54,016 nucleotides of DNA from positions 1-54,016 of IMG/VR virus record IMGVR_UViG_3300042332_001412, one strand, 5' to 3'. The stretch comes from a virus. The notes under the pieces were generated by a model. It ran no database searches, was not told the DNA's origin, and worked only from the letters and a program-made list of their open reading frames with translations. Below are positions 17,996 to 46,561 of the stretch, one piece after another. The stretch's first letter is position 1, and each line of letters opens with the position of its first letter. Position numbers and translations under genes: made by a program.

Positions 17996-20900
17996 TATAC
18001 TGCAAGTGCAAGGGCTCTAAAGTTTCTAATTATTGGAATGTTTGTTTGATCTGCACTAATCATACAAACTTTAATTGCAAACTCTTTAAATTCTGGTAGA
18101 TTTTTCAATTCAAAGTCAAATGCTTTATATTCATTGGAATTTGAAGATCTTGGATATGAAACTGCAGGAATTTCAATATAATTCATTGAATCAAATATTC
18201 CTAGGTTTCCATCACTATAAGTTTTTACAAATACTTTAATATCTGAGTATTCTCCATTTAGACCCTGAGTTCTAACACCATCTAATAAAACTTTAACTGA
18301 AGTTGATGTATTTTGTAAAGTAATTTTTTTAGTTATGTAAGATGAATAAATTCCAGATGAAGGTGTCAATTCTGCAGATACATCTACTTGCCCATTTAGT
18401 GTCTTCTTGATAATTCTATTGGAAATAGCAATTGCAGAAGAACCTTGTACATCTATTGCAGGGCTTATATTATCTTTTTCAGTTGATAAAGATAAATTAA
18501 ATGTTAGAGTAGATGCAGTAGGAGATCCATAATACTCGACAGAGTTTGCTGGAGATGCAACTAACCTTGATGCAGTAAGTTCATTATACTGTCTGTTTTG
18601 AACAGATTGTTCAGAAAGAACTGTAAATGAAGATGCAGTCTGATAAGGACTATTTCCACTAATACTTTCAATTCCTACAGATACATTAGTTGATGGAATT
18701 GATAAAATATTTAAATTTGGATATAGTTCTTCATATTGTATATTTCTTGAAGCTTTAATAAAAGTTCCTCCTGAGATTAAATTAGAATTTGCATTAATTG
18801 CTGAACTAATTTTATATCTATCAAGGTCAATAACTTCAGTAATTTTATGAGTTTTATTAATTTCAGATAATGGAATTCCATTTATGGAGTAGCAATATAA
18901 AACAGATCCTGATGAATGGGTGGTAGCAGTTGTTCCAAATTGACCTCTTCCTCCTGCAGGAATAGTCAGAGTAGTTCCAGCAATTGCAGTATACTTAATA
19001 ATTTCATCATTTACTAGAATATATCCTGGATTTGAAACTGAAACAGCAGATCCACCTATAGTTGTCCATGTTGTTTCAGATGTATTTCCAACATTGATTG
19101 GGCCAGTTTGAGTAGCACTTGTAATAGCTGTATTCAAACTAGTTTGTAAAGCATCTGAAAATACTGAAGAAATTTTCACATAATTTTGGACACTATTCAT
19201 GCCATGGTTTGGATGATATACTTCAATAGATCCTGAATTTTGAGTAAAAGATAATGCATTTGCAGGAAGATTGCAGTCTGGAATTGGGCTATTTTTTAAC
19301 TTACATGTGTATGTACTGTTTGTTGCAAATTTAGCTCTATTTAAAGTAAATTTAATATCTTCAAATTGATCAGGAGTCCAAACCGACATGTTTTGAGACT
19401 TGTATAAAGATCCAGAATATGGTTGTTTATCAATAATAAATCCTCCAAGAATATCAACTTCAGAGAGTCTTGAGACCCAAATTTTATAATTTTTAGAAAC
19501 ACTTCTTACCATAAATGCATATTCAGTGTTCTGATTTAAATAAATTGGAGACGCAAATGTAAATCTTGTTGCTACAGAGCTAGTTTTTGAAATATTAACT
19601 TCAGATGATTGTTTAGTAACAATACTATTTGGAACAACTGTAGTGGTAAGAGTTCCATTTTCCATAGTTCTAATTTCAACAGATACTGGAAGAGTATCAT
19701 CTTTTGATTGGAAATACAAATCTACGGAAGTTGCAAAAATACCACCCTCTACATCAACTAGGAAAGATTGTGCTAATGGATCTCTACCTGGAGCTGGTTC
19801 TGCTGGGGGTTCTGGTGGTGGATCTGGTATGAATACAGTTCTAGTTCCTCTAATTGCAGCTGAAGTAATTTGTGGAGTAGTTAGAGATAGTACATTACTA
19901 GTAAGTGATACTCTTGTACCTAATGTATCATATATTGTTTGTGAACTAGAATCTGAAATTCCATAAATTGAAGTTCCAGTAATTTCATCACATAGTTTAA
20001 ATACAGTTTCGCCTGTTTGATATGTATTTGGAGGAATAATGACGAATGCTTTTACAGTTCCTCTTGAATCTGATCTAACACGAGCACCATTAAATGATAC
20101 TACGCCAGTTGCTCTTGAAGACAGTCCTCTAATTAAAATAGAATCTCCAAGTCTATCTGGATTAATTTCTGTTCCATCAGCAGTAGTAATGTTATCAATA
20201 TCCAAGAATGATGTAGTAGATGTATATAAACCAAGAGATGAGGTTACTACAGTAGCTCTAATTGGATTATTAATTGGTGATACTGATGGAGTTCCTTGTG
20301 GAGCAGTAAATCTAATTTCGACAGTTTCTCCGTTAATAAAAGTTCCAACTCTATTGGTCATCCCTGTGATGTTTTTAGGAAAAATTATTGAATTATTTAA
20401 TCTATCATCAACAAAGAAATGGAATAGTGTGTTAGGTTTTAATTTTGTTGAAGTTAATTCTACAACTCTAGATCTAATAAATTCTACCGCTGTAATAGAG
20501 TTAATAGAATCTCCAACTTGAATATCTTGTGTTAAAGTTGAGAATGTATTATTTACACCAGTTCTTTGTTGGAATACATTTGTACCACCTCCTGTGCTGG
20601 CAGATCCAGTAGTTGTCCAAGCCCCCCACTGTTCTCCTCTAGCACTGCTATTATCAAATAAAAATCTAATAGGGGCACTTAAATCTATACGCTGAGTTTG
20701 TGATTGAGTTTTTACTGTATCGAACCAAACATCCTTTTCTGGATTTAATACAATATCTCCATACCATTGAATAATTTCAAATGGTTGTAGGTTTTCCACT
20801 CTGCTAGCATAATTTTGAATTATGAAAGGAGTTTCAGTATATGGAATGGTAACAAGAGATCCAGTTTGTTGTGTAGTAGAATCTGAATTTGATGCATTTA

Positions 20901-40949: not shown

Positions 40950-41378
40950 AGTTTGTATAATAGTTTACAGTATATATCAATGTTTTTCAGAAATTTTTTT
41001 CTGGAAAAATTTTTCTGAGATTATTTGAAGTGTCTCTGAAAGACATAGGGCAATGTATGAAAATTGCTCTCGGAGACTTGTGTTTGTTGGGAGGGGGGTC
41101 ATATGGAGGGTGGTGGAGAGGCTTGGAGGGTGGTGGAAATTTTTTGAGTTGATTGAATATCTCTCTGGCTCGTTTGGTGCGGTATAGCTTTGAGGGACCC
41201 AACGATTTTCACGGCCCGGCGGGCCGGCGACCCATAAGGCCCGCTTATACTGCCCTGCCCGACTGATCAGGACTGCTGATGGATCAGGAATGCTGATCTG
41301 TCTTGCCACTGGCTGATAAGCACTGCTGATCAATCAGGATTGCTGATGGAAGGGGGCCGAAGCCCCCCTGGCTGCTGA
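40950..41378. other. Gene-free boundary region rich in inverted repeats
   Basis: No convincing ORF: the open frames here would need TTG starts without a ribosome site. Contents in order: AT-rich palindromic stretch (CAGAAATTTTTTTCTG at about 40988-41003 and related copies), G-rich GGAGGGTGGTGGA direct repeats around 41104-41140, a 13-base palindrome GGCCCGGCGGGCC (about 41213-41225), a series of TGATCAGGA-TGCTGAT repeats (41270-41350), and a terminator-like hairpin. It divides the late structural block from the small-gene block. A regulatory or replication role is possible but not shown. Confidence 0.5.
41352..41367 (-). terminator. GC-rich hairpin with TTCG loop
   Basis: GGGGGC-TTCG-GCCCCC on the minus strand, 12 bases after the stop of the 65-residue gene. 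There is no T-run after it (TTCC), so it is a stability or terminator-like hairpin rather than a perfect intrinsic terminator. Confidence 0.55.
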
Positions 41379-41576
41379 TCACCAGCCTGTTTTTACTCGT
41401 TTGCCTGTCCAACTGGCAGCAGTAGCGTACTCAACAGCGAAGCGGTCAACATCCCACATGTTGGCCTTGGCCCGCTCAGCCGCACAGCGTGCCAGGTTGA
41501 TCTGATCAAACAAGTTAAGCTTTTTAGGTGCCCGATACAGGGTGCCAGCGGCTGAACAGATGGTGTGGTCGGTCAT
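41379..41576 (-). CDS. Small hypothetical protein in GC-rich patch
   Basis: A 65-residue protein with a helical, Ala-rich centre (LFDQINLARCAAERAKANMW) and a basic end (WTGKRVKTGW). ATG start. Codon third positions are G/C-rich, unlike the structural genes. No family recognised. Confidence 0.5.
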   Translation of the reverse strand: MTDHTICSAAGTLYRAPKKLNLFDQINLARCAAERAKANMWDVDRFAVEYATAASWTGKRVKTGW

Positions 41577-41640
41577 GGTGCTGGTGTGGTGTGGTTGATC
41601 GGTGGAGGGAAGGGGCAGCCGTCAAGCTGCCCCGTAGGGG

Positions 41641-42018
41641 TCAGACCGTGGCGTTGCGATCCTGGCTCCAATCCCGAAGCCTGCGAGTGCTGGCCTTGCT
41701 GAACACTCGGTTCCCGATGGTGCGGCCATCAGCCAGGGTGATTACAGAGCGCCCAGCGGCGTCAGCCGCTACCTGGAGGGCCTGGCGGCCCAAGCGGCGC
41801 TCAGCAGGCAGAGCGGTGGGGCTCTCCCACAGATCCAGCAGCCATTGGGCACGGTGGCGGCCAACCACACACTGGTGGCGGATGGTGACCTTGGCCACCG
41901 CAACGGCAACAGCGGTGGGGATGCTGGTACGGGTGAGGCGGTCAGAGCGGTTGGGGTTTGCCATGTTCCTGGTGGTGTGCGGGGTCCGTTTGCCCCGCTT
42001 GAAAGAATTGTAGGCCAT
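41641..42018 (-). CDS. Basic hypothetical protein in GC-rich patch
   Basis: A 125-residue Arg-rich protein (MAYNSFKRGKRTPHTTRN..., ending RRLRDWSQDRNATV). The centre ITLADGRTIGNRVFSKASTR and AERRLGRQALQVAADAAGRS have no known motif. A plus-strand open frame of similar length covers the same DNA; the minus frame is preferred because all neighbours are minus and it begins with ATG just after a stem-loop. Function unknown. Confidence 0.45.
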   Translation of the reverse strand: MAYNSFKRGKRTPHTTRNMANPNRSDRLTRTSIPTAVAVAVAKVTIRHQCVVGRHRAQWLLDLWESPTALPAERRLGRQALQVAADAAGRSVITLADGRTIGNRVFSKASTRRLRDWSQDRNATV

Positions 42019-42052
42019 AGGGGGACCCTGGCTATGGGTCAGGCCCCGGATT

Positions 42053-42066
42053 GTTGCAAAGCTTAA
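42053..42066 (-). repeat. Stop-proximal repeat GTTGCAAAGCTTAA, copy 1
   Basis: Sits 3 bases after the stop of the GP88-family gene. An identical copy sits 3 bases after the stop of the 73-residue gene (42893-42906). Confidence 0.8.
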
Positions 42067-42069
42067 TCT

Positions 42070-42828
42070 CTACACTTTGGCAGAGAGAATCGGCTGCAGT
42101 TCTTTACGATAGCCTCCGAACTTGCCAGCCTTGCGGCGTGCCCACAATGCTTTGCCGTAGGTTGAACCTTTAGGCTGGGTTGAATGCACAAGCAAAGCAA
42201 ACGGATTGTCACCGAAACAGTGGCTATCATCGTGATCAACCTCTAGGCCCAGAGCCTCAGCTTCCTCGTCATTGTGAACCACTTTACTATAGCGAGGGAA
42301 CAAACCTTCGTCGATCATGTGATCGAACTTGCCCCCATAGCTGGCGGTCATGTAGAAGTTAGAAGGCAACTCCAAACCTACAAACAGCGGCAGGTTCTTG
42401 CTGTAGCAGTAGAACTTAAGGTCGGGATTCAGCTTGGCAACCTCTAGCCAAGCAAGCAGATAAGCGAGGCTAAAGAAATCACCAGACTCGTGTATTCTCA
42501 CCAGCTCGATCCTTTTAGTGCGAGCATTCTGCAGGCTGGTGTTGATCAGCTCCACTGCAGTGCTGGCTTTGATCGCATCCACGATCAGCTGCAGGTTCCG
42601 AGCCCGAGCATAGAAAGGGCCATCGTATTGTGCCTCGCTGGTGGCAGCAAAGCACCGAAACTGGGTCTGTGGGCCGTCTTGAATGTGGCGCTTGCCGTTC
42701 TCACCAACAACAGCAAAGCTCAGGCAGAAAAGGGCACCGGGACAGGTCTTGCCTGCCGGCAAATTAAAGATCAGGGTTTGCTTGCCAAGCTTGGCGTTGC
42801 CGGTGGAGAAGGTCAGCAGATCAGACAT
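42070..42828 (-). CDS. GP88-family phage protein
   Basis: A 252-residue protein matching the 'gene product 88' pattern I know from mycobacteriophages and other phages: FSTGNAKLGKQTLIFNLPAG then KTCPGALFC (residues 7-35), RCFAAT (58-63), ARNLQLIVDAIK, RIHESGDFFS (111-120), KFYCYSKNLPLF and FYMTASYGGKFD. The spaced Cys residues (29, 35, 59) and His/Asp in HESGDF may form an active or metal site. Family function is unknown to me. It is the largest gene of the GC-rich patch. Start ATG with a TAAGAT -10-like box about 35 bases upstream. Confidence 0.75.
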   Translation of the reverse strand: MSDLLTFSTGNAKLGKQTLIFNLPAGKTCPGALFCLSFAVVGENGKRHIQDGPQTQFRCFAATSEAQYDGPFYARARNLQLIVDAIKASTAVELINTSLQNARTKRIELVRIHESGDFFSLAYLLAWLEVAKLNPDLKFYCYSKNLPLFVGLELPSNFYMTASYGGKFDHMIDEGLFPRYSKVVHNDEEAEALGLEVDHDDSHCFGDNPFALLVHSTQPKGSTYGKALWARRKAGKFGGYRKELQPILSAKV

Positions 42829-42872
42829 GGGTCTGTGTCGGTTGGGGACTTGAGAATCTTAGCAGGTGGGAA

Positions 42873-42891
42873 GGGCCAGGCTGGCTGGCCC
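42873..42891. terminator. Intergenic stem-loop, copy 1
   Basis: GGGCCAG-5 bases-CTGGCCC perfect 7-bp stem between two minus-strand genes; the same 19-base hairpin recurs at 43167-43185. No T-run, so termination is only a possibility. Confidence 0.55.
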
Positions 42892-42892
42892 T

Positions 42893-42906
42893 GTTGCAAA
42901 GCTTAA
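42893..42906 (-). repeat. Stop-proximal repeat GTTGCAAAGCTTAA, copy 2
   Basis: Identical 14-base copy of the element at 42053-42066, again 3 bases past a stop codon and immediately before a GC-rich stem-loop. Confidence 0.8.
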
Positions 42907-42909
42907 CGA

Positions 42910-43131
42910 TCAGGGTTCCATCAGCACTCGGCTAAAGGTCCAACCTATGGGCAGGTTGATAGAGCACCACTGCTCCGCCGCCCACTCTATGGTGGCATCG
43001 AAATCCTCATCGAGATCCTCAGGATCAACCTCAAGCTCAACCCAGAGGCTCCCGTTAGGGATCCAGCTTGTGCTGTCACGATCCGTGAAACACTCTAGGC
43101 AAACCTCGACAGTGGTGGTGGCCATGGCCAT
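42910..43131 (-). CDS. Acidic small hypothetical protein
   Basis: A 73-residue acidic protein (MAMATTTVEVCLECFTDRDS..., core LWVELEVDPEDLDEDFDATI then EWAAEQWCSINLPIGW). ATG start, with a second in-frame ATG at residue 3. High acidity and aromatic content suggest a small binding protein, perhaps a nucleic-acid mimic or inhibitor, but nothing specific is recognised. Confidence 0.55.
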   Translation of the reverse strand: MAMATTTVEVCLECFTDRDSTSWIPNGSLWVELEVDPEDLDEDFDATIEWAAEQWCSINLPIGWTFSRVLMEP

Positions 43132-43166
43132 TCCGTTTGGGACCCCTTAATCATACAGCACCGGAT

Positions 43167-43185
43167 GGGCCAGGCTGGCTGGCCC
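43167..43185. terminator. Intergenic stem-loop, copy 2
   Basis: Second copy of the GGGCCAG/CTGGCCC hairpin, followed on the minus strand by TATGAT 11 bases on, a -10-like box for the 73-residue gene. Confidence 0.55.
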
Positions 43186-43203
43186 TGTAACAACTTGAAA
43201 TAA

Positions 43204-43368
43204 TTATATTTTCTTCAGGCAATTGTCGATAAAGGCAAACAGCTCGCCCAGATCTATGCTACAATGAACCCAGCGAACAGCAGAGCCATATTCAGCCAAG
43301 AATTCATCAGCAACTAAACATCCAGCAGCAAAGTCTAGGGCCTGGGTGTATGTCAGGGTCGGGTTCAT
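43204..43368 (-). CDS. Small hypothetical protein
   Basis: A 54-residue ORF starting MNPTLTYTQALDFAAGCLVA and ending ELFAFIDNCLKKI. Two helices and three Cys. ATG start, downstream of a hairpin and a TAGGAT -10-like box. No family recognised. Confidence 0.55.
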   Translation of the reverse strand: MNPTLTYTQALDFAAGCLVADEFLAEYGSAVRWVHCSIDLGELFAFIDNCLKKI

Positions 43369-43403
43369 TGGTGTGGTTGCAAGTGCCTGTTGATCCTACA
43401 GCA

Positions 43404-43429
43404 ATGGGTGAGCCCGAAGACTCACCCAT
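43404..43429. terminator. Intergenic 9-bp hairpin
   Basis: ATGGGTGAG (43404-43412) pairs perfectly with CTCACCCAT (43421-43429) across an 8-base loop. Lies between two minus-strand genes just upstream of a -10-like TGTAGGAT. Confidence 0.6.
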
Positions 43430-43446
43430 GTAACATTATGTAATAT

Positions 43447-43641
43447 CTACATCTCCAGCTGCCAATCCTGGTCTTTAAGTATATTTACCCAGAAAAAGTT
43501 TCGTCCATTCATACTACGCAGGAACAATCTATCACCTACATGTTGCTCAACAATACAATGTTCGCATGATTCCATTAGATTAGCGAACCTGTTTTTGGCC
43601 TTTTTGGAAATAGGCTTGACGGTGATTGTGGTGTTAATCAT
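43447..43641 (-). CDS. Small hypothetical protein
   Basis: A 64-residue protein: basic N-terminus (TITVKPISKKAKNRFANLME), then a beta-like segment (GDRLFLRSMNGRNFFWVNIL) and a polar end. The pattern resembles short cyanophage orphans I have seen near early genes. ATG start. Upstream is TGCTAAAAT, an extended -10 flanked by CACTG/CAGTG. Confidence 0.6.
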   Translation of the reverse strand: MINTTITVKPISKKAKNRFANLMESCEHCIVEQHVGDRLFLRSMNGRNFFWVNILKDQDWQLEM

Positions 43642-43727
43642 GACATGTTAGAGTAATTTTCTCTTCACTGATTTTAGCACAGTGAGAAAGGCCAGAACGA
43701 ACAGAAGCTCAATTGTCACAATCTGTT

Positions 43728-43776
43728 ATAGTTAATAATTTGGTGGGGAGTTGCCTCCCCGTGTATAGTTAATAAT
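43728..43776 (-). repeat. Two TATAGTTAATAAT repeats flanking a hairpin
   Basis: TATAGTTAATAAT occurs at 43728-43740 and 43764-43776. Between them GGGGAG-4 bases-CTCCCC (43745-43760) forms a hairpin with a GCAA loop on the minus strand. The repeat motif (ATTATTAACTATA on the minus strand) recurs at several promoters to the right. Confidence 0.7.
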
Positions 43777-44040
43777 TTAGACGGTAACAGTTACTAATTC
43801 TTCAGTCTTTCGGCCATCAGCAATGGTAGAACCAATGCTAACATCTTTCAGCATCTGATCATTAGTAAGCAAATCACTCAGGAATTGTGCATAAGACTCA
43901 CTACATGTGAATGCATATGCTTTGTCTACATTACTGTGATAAGTGATAATAATATCAGTATTGTCTACAGTAATGGAATGAATAGCACTGGACTGTTCTT
44001 TAGTAAACTGACGGTGAACAGGAGAGATTGCAACGGTCAT
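43777..44040 (-). CDS. Small hypothetical protein
   Basis: An 87-residue protein, MTVAISPVHRQFTKEQSSAI..., with DIIITYHSNVDKAYAFTCSE and YAQFLSDLL. The layout of short strands then a helix is slightly like a KTSC-type domain, but not enough to name. The ATG at 44040 is preferred over a longer TTG-started frame because that TTG is the -35 TTGACA of the promoter. Confidence 0.6.
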   Translation of the reverse strand: MTVAISPVHRQFTKEQSSAIHSITVDNTDIIITYHSNVDKAYAFTCSESYAQFLSDLLTNDQMLKDVSIGSTIADGRKTEELVTVTV

Positions 44041-44070
44041 GGTGTTCTGTGTGTTGTGTGTACAGTTAAT

Positions 44071-44100
44071 AATGTAGCTGGTAGGGGCTGAGGTTGTCAA
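44071..44100 (-). promoter_or_regulatory. Sigma70-type early promoter
   Basis: TTGACA, 18 bases, TACATT on the minus strand, followed by TATTAACTGTAC and then the ATG at 44040. Confidence 0.8.
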
Positions 44101-44116
44101 CCCCTTTGGGCCAGTT

Positions 44117-44251
44117 TCAGAATTGGATCTCGTCTAGAGTTGGCTCTGCAGAGTTTGTATCATCATCTGCAGTCAACATGTCCAGAATCGAGAGAATCTC
44201 ATTGCCAGTTTGGCCCTTGCGAAGCATTGAAATTAGAACTGCTGTAGACAT
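44117..44251 (-). CDS. 44-residue conserved-type early peptide
   Basis: MSTAVLISMLRKGQTGNEIL... ending TLDEIQF. The 'LISMLRxGxxGxEILxILD' pattern is one I associate with small cyanophage early proteins. One helix and an acidic tail. ATG start; the gene begins 6 bases after the next upstream stop, so it is co-transcribed with it. Confidence 0.65.
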   Translation of the reverse strand: MSTAVLISMLRKGQTGNEILSILDMLTADDDTNSAEPTLDEIQF

Positions 44252-44256
44252 AATAA

Positions 44257-44391
44257 TCAATAATCGTAGTTGGAGTTAATGAAAGCAACAAAATGTTGCT
44301 GGGCTTCGGCATCATCATCAGCAGGAATTAGCATATCATCCTGCCAATCATAAACCTCAGCTTCAAGTTCGACGAAATCGTAGGTGTCCAT
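44257..44391 (-). CDS. 44-residue acidic early peptide
   Basis: MDTYDFVELEAEVYDWQDDM... ending FVAFINSNYDY. Strongly acidic, aromatic, small enough to be a protein-protein inhibitor or DNA mimic, though that is inference. The ATG follows the leader hairpin GTTCA/TGAAC directly. Confidence 0.6.
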   Translation of the reverse strand: MDTYDFVELEAEVYDWQDDMLIPADDDAEAQQHFVAFINSNYDY

Positions 44392-44392
44392 G

Positions 44393-44406
44393 GTTCAGTA
44401 GTGAAC
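44393..44406 (-). promoter_or_regulatory. Leader hairpin GTTCA-4-TGAAC, copy 1
   Basis: Minus-strand leader GTTCACTACTGAAC, ending 1 base before the ATG at 44391. Sister copies at 44905-44918 and 45170-45183. Confidence 0.65.
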
Positions 44407-44412
44407 ATTGAT

Positions 44413-44442
44413 AATGTAGCTGGTAGGGGTTGGACTTGTCAA
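44413..44442 (-). promoter_or_regulatory. Sigma70-type early promoter
   Basis: TTGACA, 18 bases, TACATT on the minus strand; flanking bases closely match the promoter at 44071-44100. Confidence 0.8.
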
Positions 44443-44467
44443 CCCCTTTGGGCCGGTTTCGGAACTG

Positions 44468-44635
44468 TCAGTCCAGGCAACCGTTGGCGTTCAGCCAGCC
44501 AGCACACCAGCCTTCACCAGTGTAGCATCCGACATAGTAGTTGCCAATTGAAATACCAAACTGTTCTTCCATGTGGTAGGTATTCTTCAGATCCCAGCCG
44601 AGATAGAAGAATTTGGTCTGAATGGAGAATTTCAT
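44468..44635 (-). CDS. 55-residue hypothetical early protein
   Basis: MKFSIQTKFFYLGWDLKNTY..., with GNYYVGCYTGEGWCAGWLNA. Rich in Tyr, Trp, Gly and Cys, suggesting a compact beta fold. ATG start; own promoter at 44659-44688. No family recognised. Confidence 0.6.
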   Translation of the reverse strand: MKFSIQTKFFYLGWDLKNTYHMEEQFGISIGNYYVGCYTGEGWCAGWLNANGCLD

Positions 44636-44658
44636 GGCCTTGTGTGGTTGACTTGTTC

Positions 44659-44688
44659 AGTATGGCATGGGTTGGGGGCTGGTGTCAA
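44659..44688 (-). promoter_or_regulatory. Sigma70-type early promoter
   Basis: TTGACA, 18 bases, CATACT on the minus strand, preceded by the shared CTAATCAGTCAGGGGG upstream sequence. Confidence 0.75.
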
Positions 44689-44713
44689 CCCCCTGACTGA
44701 TTAGGGTTGCTTA

Positions 44714-44899
44714 TCAATCCTCCAGCAGTTCGGGATTGTATTCTTCAACCTCTGTAATCAATTCTTCATCAGAATAGGAAGAAAGATTGTCAATCAAAGT
44801 ATCATAAACCATACGCTCCATAGTCTTCATGTCCATACCATCAATAATCTGCTGAACATAGGTTTCAATCAGCGAATCACGGTCAAAGGTGTTAGTCAT
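44714..44899 (-). CDS. 61-residue acidic early protein
   Basis: MTNTFDRDSLIETYVQQIID..., ending EELITEVEEYNPELLED: two predicted acidic helices. The ATG at 44899 is chosen over the upstream ATG at 44920, because 44920 lies only a few bases past the -10 box and inside the leader hairpin. No family recognised. Confidence 0.6.
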   Translation of the reverse strand: MTNTFDRDSLIETYVQQIIDGMDMKTMERMVYDTLIDNLSSYSDEELITEVEEYNPELLED

Positions 44900-44904
44900 G
44901 AGTG

Positions 44905-44918
44905 GTTCAGAAGTGAAC
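44905..44918 (-). promoter_or_regulatory. Leader hairpin GTTCA-4-TGAAC, copy 2
   Basis: GTTCACTTCTGAAC on the minus strand, 5 bases before the ATG at 44899; identical to copy 3. Confidence 0.7.
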
Positions 44919-44924
44919 ATTAAT

Positions 44925-44954
44925 AATGTAGCAGGTGGGGGCCGAGCTGGTCAA
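44925..44954 (-). promoter_or_regulatory. Sigma70-type early promoter
   Basis: TTGACC, 18 bases, TACATT on the minus strand. Directly upstream is the inverted repeat GATTAGTA/TACTAATC at the end of the next gene. Confidence 0.75.
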
Positions 44955-44979
44955 CCCCCTGATTGATTAGTAATACTAA

Positions 44980-45162
44980 TCAGACATCATAGCAAAGGTA
45001 TTCCATCATCTCTTCTTTATACATTGCAGTCTCAGCTTCAGTATTAAAGCTAATACCTGCGAGGAAGTTGTAATGGTCAACCCAAGATGCACACCATGTC
45101 ATTTTGTAGTCATGATTTGCAACTGAGTTGTACTGATTGCAAGTGTCGAGAATCAGAGCCAT
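44980..45162 (-). CDS. 60-residue hypothetical early protein
   Basis: MALILDTCNQYNSVANHDYK..., with MTWCASWVDHYNFLAGISFN and an acidic C-terminus. Rich in Tyr, Asn and Cys. ATG start; own promoter and leader hairpin. Function unknown. Confidence 0.6.
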   Translation of the reverse strand: MALILDTCNQYNSVANHDYKMTWCASWVDHYNFLAGISFNTEAETAMYKEEMMEYLCYDV

Positions 45163-45169
45163 TGGAGTG

Positions 45170-45183
45170 GTTCAGAAGTGAAC
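45170..45183 (-). promoter_or_regulatory. Leader hairpin GTTCA-4-TGAAC, copy 3
   Basis: GTTCACTTCTGAAC on the minus strand, 7 bases before the ATG at 45162; same context GAACCACTC as copy 2. Confidence 0.7.
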
Positions 45184-45189
45184 AAAGGT

Positions 45190-45218
45190 AACTTAACCGA
45201 TTTTCAGGGTCCTGTCAA
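45190..45218 (-). promoter_or_regulatory. Sigma70-type early promoter
   Basis: TTGACA, 17 bases, TAAGTT on the minus strand, overlapping the stop of the upstream 68-residue gene. Confidence 0.7.
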
Positions 45219-45421
45219 CCCTCTGACTGATTAGCTGTCCTTATGGTGTTGATAAGGGTTGCTAATTCAGTTTCATCTAATCCCAGAACATATTCCTCAA
45301 TTACATTCTCCATGAATGTGTAGTTGTTACTATAGAGCTGTTCTTGTAGCAGTTCGATAGCTTCGTCTTGATTCATGGAATGTAGATTAAAGAAACTAAT
45401 CACTTCAGTGTAGTCAACCAT
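45215..45421 (-). CDS. 68-residue helical early protein
   Basis: MVDYTEVISFFNLHSMNQDE..., with AIELLQEQLYSNNYTFMENV and DETELATLINTIRTA: an all-helical acidic protein. Its ATG overlaps the preceding stop by one base (TGATG), implying coupled translation. No family recognised. Confidence 0.6.
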   Translation of the reverse strand: MVDYTEVISFFNLHSMNQDEAIELLQEQLYSNNYTFMENVIEEYVLGLDETELATLINTIRTANQSEG

Positions 45422-45579
45422 CAGTAATCACTCCCATCATTATAATGATCATAATTGGCCATTACAGCTGCAATAGCATTATAATAACCCACCTGGGAGT
45501 TATCATAAAAGATCTTGTGGAGGGATGCAATTAGGGCTTCCAAAGAAGGTCTCTCAGGGACATATGCAATATAGGCCAT
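45421..45579 (-). CDS. 52-residue early protein with promoter at its start codon
   Basis: MAYIAYVPERPSLEALIASL... ending YDHYNDGSDY. The frame is open and coupled to the next gene. Its ATG sits inside the spacer/-10 of a perfect sigma70 promoter, so a transcript from that promoter would begin after the ATG. Either an upstream promoter serves this gene, or only the following gene is made from it. Confidence 0.5.
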   Translation of the reverse strand: MAYIAYVPERPSLEALIASLHKIFYDNSQVGYYNAIAAVMANYDHYNDGSDY

Positions 45580-45596
45580 TTTCGGGTGCCTGTCAA
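45568..45596 (-). promoter_or_regulatory. Sigma70-type promoter overlapping a start codon
   Basis: TTGACA, 17 bases, TATATT on the minus strand: near-consensus, yet the -10 lies inside codons 2-4 of the 52-residue ORF. Confidence 0.7.
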
Positions 45597-45721
45597 GTGG
45601 TGAATGATCAGTAATGCTTATGGGTGTATGATGTATAGTTAATAATCTCTGATATTAGCAATACTAATCGGAGGGGCTCGGAATGATTTGGAGTCCTTAT
45701 GGGTTTTTTGGGCCGGGGGGC

Positions 45722-45750
45722 TTGACAAATTCGGCGTGATGTGGTATACT
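45722..45750 (+). promoter_or_regulatory. Strong plus-strand sigma70 promoter
   Basis: TTGACA (45722-45727), 17 bases, TATACT (45745-45750). It is the only near-perfect plus-strand promoter I found. No plus-strand protein gene follows; a hairpin and two 29-base repeats do. Confidence 0.75.
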
Positions 45751-45756
45751 GCGGGC

Positions 45757-45910
45757 CAAGACTGCTGAACCTCCGAACCTTTCTGAGACAACCAGACACA
45801 TTCGGAGGTATACAGTATATACTTAATAATCTATCACATATACTCGGAGATATACAGTATATACTTAATAATTTCTCTCTTTCATTCTCTCTCTACACAT
45901 CACAAACATA
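45757..45910 (+). ncRNA. Candidate plus-strand noncoding RNA
   Basis: Transcription from the promoter at 45722 would start near 45757 and run toward the 3' end of the HNH-like gene. The first 120 bases contain a 9-bp perfect stem (ACCTCCGAA 45769-45777 with TTCGGAGGT 45801-45809) and two 29-base repeats. No plausible plus-strand ORF with a ribosome site is present. The 3' end is uncertain; a T-run lies at about 45909-45915. It would be antisense to any read-through of the minus-strand gene at 45944. Confidence 0.45.
45802..45872. repeat. Two 29-base direct repeats with palindromic core
   Basis: TCGGAG-N-TATACAGTATATACTTAATAAT occurs at 45802-45830 and 45844-45872 (28 of 29 identical, period 42). 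Each contains the palindrome TATACAGTATA, like an operator pair. Confidence 0.8.
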
Positions 45911-45943
45911 TATTTTTTATTACATTTAATCTAATGTTAATAA

Positions 45944-46561
45944 TTACACATATTCATACTTACCATTCCGCATCACTTCTATCCACCTATTCAATCCTTC
46001 AATAACTCTTTGATCTGTTTCTTGTGGTAGATAATAATCTTCTAGAATAGCTATTTTCTTCTTCAAATATGCCTGATGTGCTTCTTCTGGTGTATAATAA
46101 TATCCAGCAGAGATAAACTTTCTATTCAAACTAACTCGTGATTGATATTCTTTATTCCTATGTTTGTTTCCTGTATGACGAATCACACCAATAGGATACT
46201 CAGTAGTAGCTACTTTTTTATAAGAGAAGAACATGTTCAATGAAGAACTTACAAAGATACAAGTATCTGGTCCATAGACTTTATTACCAGGATATAATAT
46301 ATCTTTGTCTAACTGTTTACCTGTTACATCACCTTGTTGCAAATACCATTTTTTGAAATTAGAGAATGTATGCCATTCTGGTGCAACACTACACCCAATA
46401 TATGATGGGCGACGCTGTAAATAGCAAGTATTATAACATCTTGCTAACATACTTTTCCATACACTATAAATTTTACATTCTACATATTTTCCATTGGCTC
46501 TTGATGTAACTACATAATCAGCATCATTGATGCCTACTCCATATAAAAGTGATTTTGCCAT
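45944..46561 (-). CDS. HNH/AP2-like DNA-binding or homing endonuclease protein
   Basis: A 205-residue protein with the layout of phage HNH/AP2-type proteins: IYSVWKSMLARCYN (residues 32-45), PSYIGCSVAPEWHTFSNFKK then W, LDKDILYPGNKVYGPDTCIF with V, and a C-terminal domain resembling AP2 (IGVIRHTGNKHRNKEYQSRV, then GYYYTPEEAHQAYLKKKIAI). The expected N-H pattern of an HNH nuclease is degenerate here, with 'D.CIFV' taking the last position, so it may only bind DNA. It starts 4 bases after the upstream gene. It is probably a stand-alone mobile-type gene. Confidence 0.7.
   Translation of the reverse strand: MAKSLLYGVGINDADYVVTSRANGKYVECKIYSVWKSMLARCYNTCYLQRRPSYIGCSVAPEWHTFSNFKKWYLQQGDVTGKQLDKDILYPGNKVYGPDTCIFVSSSLNMFFSYKKVATTEYPIGVIRHTGNKHRNKEYQSRVSLNRKFISAGYYYTPEEAHQAYLKKKIAILEDYYLPQETDQRVIEGLNRWIEVMRNGKYEYV

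Follow-up and report, generated by a model that had tools for sequence, protein, structure and literature searches.

What is a near-consensus host-type promoter doing when it reads rightward through a block of leftward genes with no protein gene in front of it? This question is raised by an intergenic element in a 54-kb stretch of viral DNA (54,016 nucleotides; "the window" hereafter means this whole stretch), a linear fragment of a T4-like cyanophage carrying the portal gene gp20 and a gp17-type terminase. The terminase is closest to those of Synechococcus phages (75.6% to S-CREM1), and matches of the UvsW-like helicase are confined to cyanophages and marine virus records. Judged by comparison with its relatives, the element is a DNA control element common to many T4-like cyanophages, usually without a protein gene.

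A rightward promoter and its neighbors

A sequence-only reading of the locus had described the surrounding block as minus-strand throughout, and the protein-like ORFs to the left and right of the element do all run leftward. Against them stands the promoter that the same reading had picked out, TTGACA-17-TATACT with an upstream TG at 45722-45750 (plus strand; predicted start ~45757), which matches the sigma70 consensus at 11/12 positions and is one of just five sites with at least 11/12 matches on both strands of the window. Promoter-like sites as such are only mildly over chance in the region (27 vs. 18.6 ± 4.1 expected); the weight of this promoter rests on its conservation in relatives. Exact scans together with the UvsW neighbor gave about ten close relatives, and the promoter-plus-start pattern TTGACA-17-TATAnTGCnnGCCAAGA recovered 29 IMG/VR stretches, about 20 of them distinct loci, in which the promoter is conserved; a modified form occurs in cultured T4-like cyanophages. 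The block at 45677-45767 is strongly conserved in the close relatives. It includes the upstream sequence CTCGGAATGATTTGGAGTCCTTATGGGTTTTTT (45677-45709, plus strand), near-identical in eight loci (L001, L002, L004, L006, L009, L012, L015, and L020) and present in pieces in Syn9 and S-SRM01, as well as the discriminator and initial transcribed sequence GCGGGCCAAGACTGCTG (45751-45767, plus strand), with the consensus GCnnGC(C/T)AAG in relatives and isolates. Across relatives the promoter stays conserved while its surroundings have diverged. What recurs, in this order, is a sigma70-type promoter directed against the genes, then GCnnGC(C/T)AAG, direct repeats rich in AT, and a 24-bp AT-rich core, to which many relatives add clustered exact DnaA boxes.

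The absence of a protein gene was also borne out, as no plus-strand ORF starting past the predicted start site is conserved among relatives. It is highly improbable that the element is just an early promoter serving a short unannotated peptide or the remnant of a gene: short plus-strand ORFs do overlap the element in single genomes, but none is held in common, the overlapping ones differ among relatives, and they begin inside or upstream of the -10 box.

To the left, a divergent sigma70-like site, TTGACA-17-TATATT (45568-45596, minus strand), is a candidate promoter facing an array of very small minus-strand genes (43700-45600). Several of these are preceded by a promoter-like site of the form GGTTGACA...TACATT/CATACT and end near a common CCCCTGACTGATTAGGG-like sequence, and the array looks like one of early host-takeover genes. 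Further left lies a GC-rich island (41000-43000; GC 0.56 vs. ~0.36 around it) that holds a GP88-family gene (PF17338) at 42070-42828 and was possibly acquired recently.

To the right, an HNH endonuclease gene (45944-46561, minus strand; phrog_953, E = 1.6e-79) adjoins the element but lies outside it, and a protein search with it returned a single distant relative and nothing more. HNH-type genes repeatedly adjoin the element, not only in the window but in L002, L015, L018, L025, and S-SRM01 at ~85 kb (L191), mostly on the opposite strand and in L018 and L025 apparently on the promoter's own strand; outside the window, these gene calls and strands were judged by eye from translations. The element site may be a favored landing place for homing genes.

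This neighborhood had led to the suggestion that the promoter makes an antisense RNA against the HNH mRNA. There is a precedent in CfrI of S-PM2, which is antisense to psbA as well as to a homing endonuclease gene (PMC2984593), and no plus-strand terminator-like site was found between the promoter and 46753, so that nothing of this kind would keep a transcript from reaching the HNH gene in antisense. However, the gene downstream varies, being HNH in the window, L002, and L015 but another gene in L001, L009, and L012. Because the element is conserved with these other genes, HNH antisense cannot be its conserved role, and the HNH-like genes on the promoter's own strand in L018 and L025 further count against it. 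We regard this explanation as very unlikely; at most, antisense action of this kind would be a side effect. The element resembles CfrI in that, in a T4-like cyanophage, a putative non-coding transcript adjoins a gene for a homing endonuclease; unlike CfrI, which targets psbA and its homing endonuclease gene, the element has no fixed target gene and has a conserved DNA core. No photosystem family was matched among the element's neighbors (small hypothetical genes and the HNH gene) in the scans made.

Hairpin, direct repeats, and the case for an RNA

Downstream of the promoter the window carries a 9-bp inverted repeat with an inner 4-bp helix (45769-45809, plus strand; arms ACCTCCGAA at 45769-45777 and TTCGGAGGT at 45801-45809; short-fold z ~ -3.9) and two 29-base direct repeats, both features as originally described. 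Copy 1 (45803-45831, plus strand), with a palindromic AGTATATACT core, and copy 2 (45845-45873, plus strand) are identical at 27/29 positions and spaced 42 bp apart, and 22-bp copies of this kind are unexpected by chance. The hairpin and the repeats overlap, as copy 1 begins with the right arm of the hairpin. Relatives have one to four copies, and within a single genome the copies mostly carry the same variant letters (ATACTTAATAAT, ATGGTTAATAAT, TAAGGTTAATAAT), which together with the changing copy number resembles concerted turnover. Wider relatives have repeats of unrelated sequence (e.g., ATTCTTTAAGGTTTCTTAAGGTATTAA, GCATTTATAAGG) in an unchanged position.

These features, together with a strong conserved promoter without an ORF, invite the interpretation that the element is a small regulatory RNA gene whose non-coding product is trans-acting or serves as a sponge for a host factor. 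The hairpin is stable in the window clade, and the inner helix, kept in all sequences except one, shows 97% pairing and a single compensatory pair. Nonetheless, the transcribed sequence is unconserved and the outer 9-bp helix is lineage-specific: among nine relatives it is paired in 65% of cells with no two-sided change, and three core pairs are invariant and uninformative. Consensus folding gave a covariation term of +0.21 with 1/12 pairs changed on both sides, fold z-scores across relatives are inconsistent (-4.5 to +1.1), Rfam offered no credible match for the element at gathering or permissive thresholds, and no tRNA was found there. An RNA of this type would also leave the AT-rich core and the DnaA boxes unexplained, and we consider it unlikely. 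Of the non-coding RNA proposed by the sequence-only reading, the conserved plus-strand promoter stood, and its transcript is probably non-coding; the conserved RNA structure did not, and with it the structured regulatory or decoy RNA went unsupported. Two candidate terminators were also rejected, the hairpin owing to the absence of a T run after it on both strands and the TTTTCCACA palindrome owing to its T before and A after, the wrong orientation for either strand.

Since the conserved parts are the promoter, the AT-rich core, and the DnaA boxes, an origin acting at the DNA level fits better than a structured RNA. It is possible that the element serves another DNA purpose or encodes an RNA with a loosely constrained sequence.

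The AT-rich core and DnaA boxes

The core itself, ATATATTTTTTATTACATTTAATC (45908-45931, plus strand; 24 bp), is a candidate DNA unwinding element by its matrix score and low stability. Under leave-one-out scoring the window reaches 23.2 against a shuffle maximum of 9.3, and 23/26 loci exceed all 100 of their shuffles. With the window excluded from training, the site at 45908 is the top match of the whole window (28.4 vs. 12.6 for the next), and the core is single-copy by matrix scan in both the window and the full-length relative G004. The 60 bp from 45902 are among the four least stable places in 54 kb; the corresponding stretch is among the least stable four in S-BM3, six in S-SZBM1, seven in S-WAM1, eight in G004, and 24 in S-H38, and is unremarkable in Syn1, S-PM2, and S-CREM1. 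In a blind test, whole genomes were scanned on both strands with a matrix trained only on uncultured loci and the window. The top match fell at the DnaA-box site in S-PM2 (19274), S-H38 (77221), S-SZBM1 (941), and S-BM3 (6802), and the element site ranked third in S-WAM1 (48601). The top match in G004 was at the known element (14829; 32.8 vs. 14.0 for the next), which is not independent, since G004 and training locus L004 are one and the same contig. In Syn9, Syn1, and S-CREM1 the best match lay away from the boxes, and P-SSM4 showed no clear site. In S-SRM01, scanning separately with a consensus picked up a site with one mismatch at 85321, which has the same layout and no boxes.

Most cyanobacteria have TTTTCCACA as their DnaA box, a sequence tested in Cyanothece by gel shift and footprinting (PMC4674748). 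In 14 non-redundant loci, 20/22 exact boxes fall at the element, defined as -200 to +420 relative to the promoter (binomial p = 4e-24, a value that assumes independent loci, which these are not fully). This corresponds to 2.47 boxes per kb at the element vs. 0.014 elsewhere, or ~180-fold, and six altered or related motifs have no comparable excess at the element in these loci. When all 22 loci are counted, 34/37 exact boxes are at the element. Boxes are carried by 6/14 non-redundant loci, but two box-free loci (L028 and L035) end soon past the promoter, thus 6/12 is the fairer fraction. The window has no TTTTCCACA within one mismatch from 41009 to 46452, the element is box-free in its closest relatives (L002, L004, L006, L009, and L015), and no cluster occurs anywhere in full-length G004.

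Among cultured and other named phages, tight box clusters occur in S-CREM1, S-H38, Syn9, S-PM2, Syn1, S-WAM1, S-SZBM1, S-SM2, S-RIM44, and ACG-2014d, and also in the SAG record MH319759, while S-BM3 has one exact box with near-matches alongside. Clusters are absent from P-SSM2, P-SSM4, S-RSM4, S-SSM7, P-HM1, S-SSM4, S-T4, and S-SRM01. An oriC-type cluster beside AT-rich DNA is therefore found in relatives without being universal, and is absent from the element in the window. S-CREM1 has a second inverted box pair in the next intergenic gap (88401-88432; L066 1902-1933), separated from the first cluster by ~600 bp. In the S-PM2 record AJ630128, tRNA-Asn and tRNA-Leu are annotated over the box cluster (19177-19333; L173); ARAGORN finds no tRNA there, so these features look misplaced.

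No direct DNA match of the element was found among annotated phages, a single weak one came from the SAG record MH319759, and the exact-style promoter pattern had no match in isolates even with three mismatches allowed, because isolates carry TAGACT/TAGAAT and GCTTAG variants. At the isolate box sites the layout of the window recurs, reading against the genes into an AT stretch and then, in most, boxes, with the order of AT stretch and boxes varying among isolates. The promoter, in each case against the genes, is TTGACA-17-TAGACT GCGGG... in S-H38, TTGACA-17-TAGACT GCACGCTTAGATGACTAC in S-BM3, TTGACA-17-TAGAAT GCACGCTTAGATCACTAC in S-SM2, and TTGACA-17-TACACT in S-WAM1; in S-PM2, Syn1, S-RIM44, Syn9, and ACG-2014d the -35/-10 pair is disrupted, with broken spacing. 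The gaps that hold the element are long (265 bp in S-WAM1, 303 in S-CREM1, 471 in S-SZBM1, and 561 in S-BM3), where the median gap in S-PM2 is 6 bp (PMC5931967).

The tight clustering of perfect boxes, often by the promoter, could alternatively mean that they sequester host DnaA and halt host replication, with the promoter being DnaA-regulated. We think such a titration or host-takeover site quite unlikely, as two to four boxes per genome are few and the window clade and several isolates keep the promoter and AT-rich core without any boxes. Rather, the persistence of promoter and core without boxes in the window clade and S-SRM01 suggests that these two are the core of the element and the DnaA boxes an aid.

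A candidate transcription-activated origin

We put a probability of roughly 60% on the element being the window's copy of a transcription-activated replication origin of T4-like cyanophages. The reading is directly supported by the conservation, order, and direction of the parts, box clustering, and low duplex stability, and from these we infer that the element is transcribed, opened, used for priming, bound by DnaA, and active as an origin. Unmodified host RNA polymerase would initiate at the strong sigma70-type promoter and read rightward against the genes, and the transcript would run into the AT-rich repeats and the 24-bp core, which transcription would open. As at T4 origins, an RNA-DNA hybrid left at the core could then prime the first DNA strand and allow loading of the phage helicase. 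Host DnaA on TTTTCCACA boxes beside the core may assist opening in many relatives; in the box-free lineage of the window, transcription and repeats would have to be enough. The T4 replisome is retained in cyanomyoviruses, whereas motA and asiA are missing (PMC2984593), and a host-type promoter is thus what a transcription-primed origin would need in them.

GC skew was unusable as proof of an origin. The orientation-corrected cumulative maximum of GC3 skew lies 2.7-37 kb from the element in 9/9 complete or near-complete genomes, which are syntenic and confounded by gene modules. By bacterial convention the cumulative maximum marks the terminus, and the sign is therefore opposite to that of an origin.

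Weigele et al. are cited as having predicted a single theta origin in Syn9 (PMC2984593), the only T4-like cyanophage origin in the literature searched. More tentatively, and at somewhat less than even odds, a single conserved intergenic origin may serve many T4-like cyanophages. In it a promoter of host type would fire into the AT-rich core, against the direction of the genes, and host-DnaA boxes would repeatedly have been acquired or lost, making it a fusion of a T4-type transcription origin with a host oriC-type origin. If the origin reading is right, it would provide exact testable coordinates in cultured phages (candidates being S-PM2 at ~19.2-19.3 kb, S-H38 at 77.2 kb, S-SZBM1 at 0.9 kb, S-BM3 at 6.8 kb, S-WAM1 at 48.6 kb, and S-SRM01 at 85.3 kb), link replication of the phage with DnaA, the initiator of the host, and give these abundant viruses of photosynthetic bacteria a non-coding marker.

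Known origins share parts of this design. At lambda ori and at E. coli oriC with transcriptional activation, transcription passes through or beside an AT-rich region with repeats or initiator boxes, and the element likewise pairs an AT-rich region and repeats or boxes with a promoter; unlike lambda ori, it has no identified phage-coded O-like initiator and its repeats are lineage-specific. T4 origins such as ori(uvsY)/oriF combine a MotA-type middle promoter with an AT-rich unwinding element, and transcription primes replication; they are not known to carry host DnaA boxes. By analogy with these, the element's promoter is directed into a thermodynamically weak AT-rich stretch where priming would be expected, but the promoter is sigma70-type and opposite in direction to the genes, and relatives frequently carry DnaA boxes. 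Compared with cyanobacterial oriC (S. elongatus, Anabaena, and Cyanothece; PMC4674748), the phage site is intergenic, with few boxes, no dnaN/dnaA neighbor, and a conserved promoter in front, yet phage relatives carry the same exact box, TTTTCCACA, clustered by AT-rich DNA.
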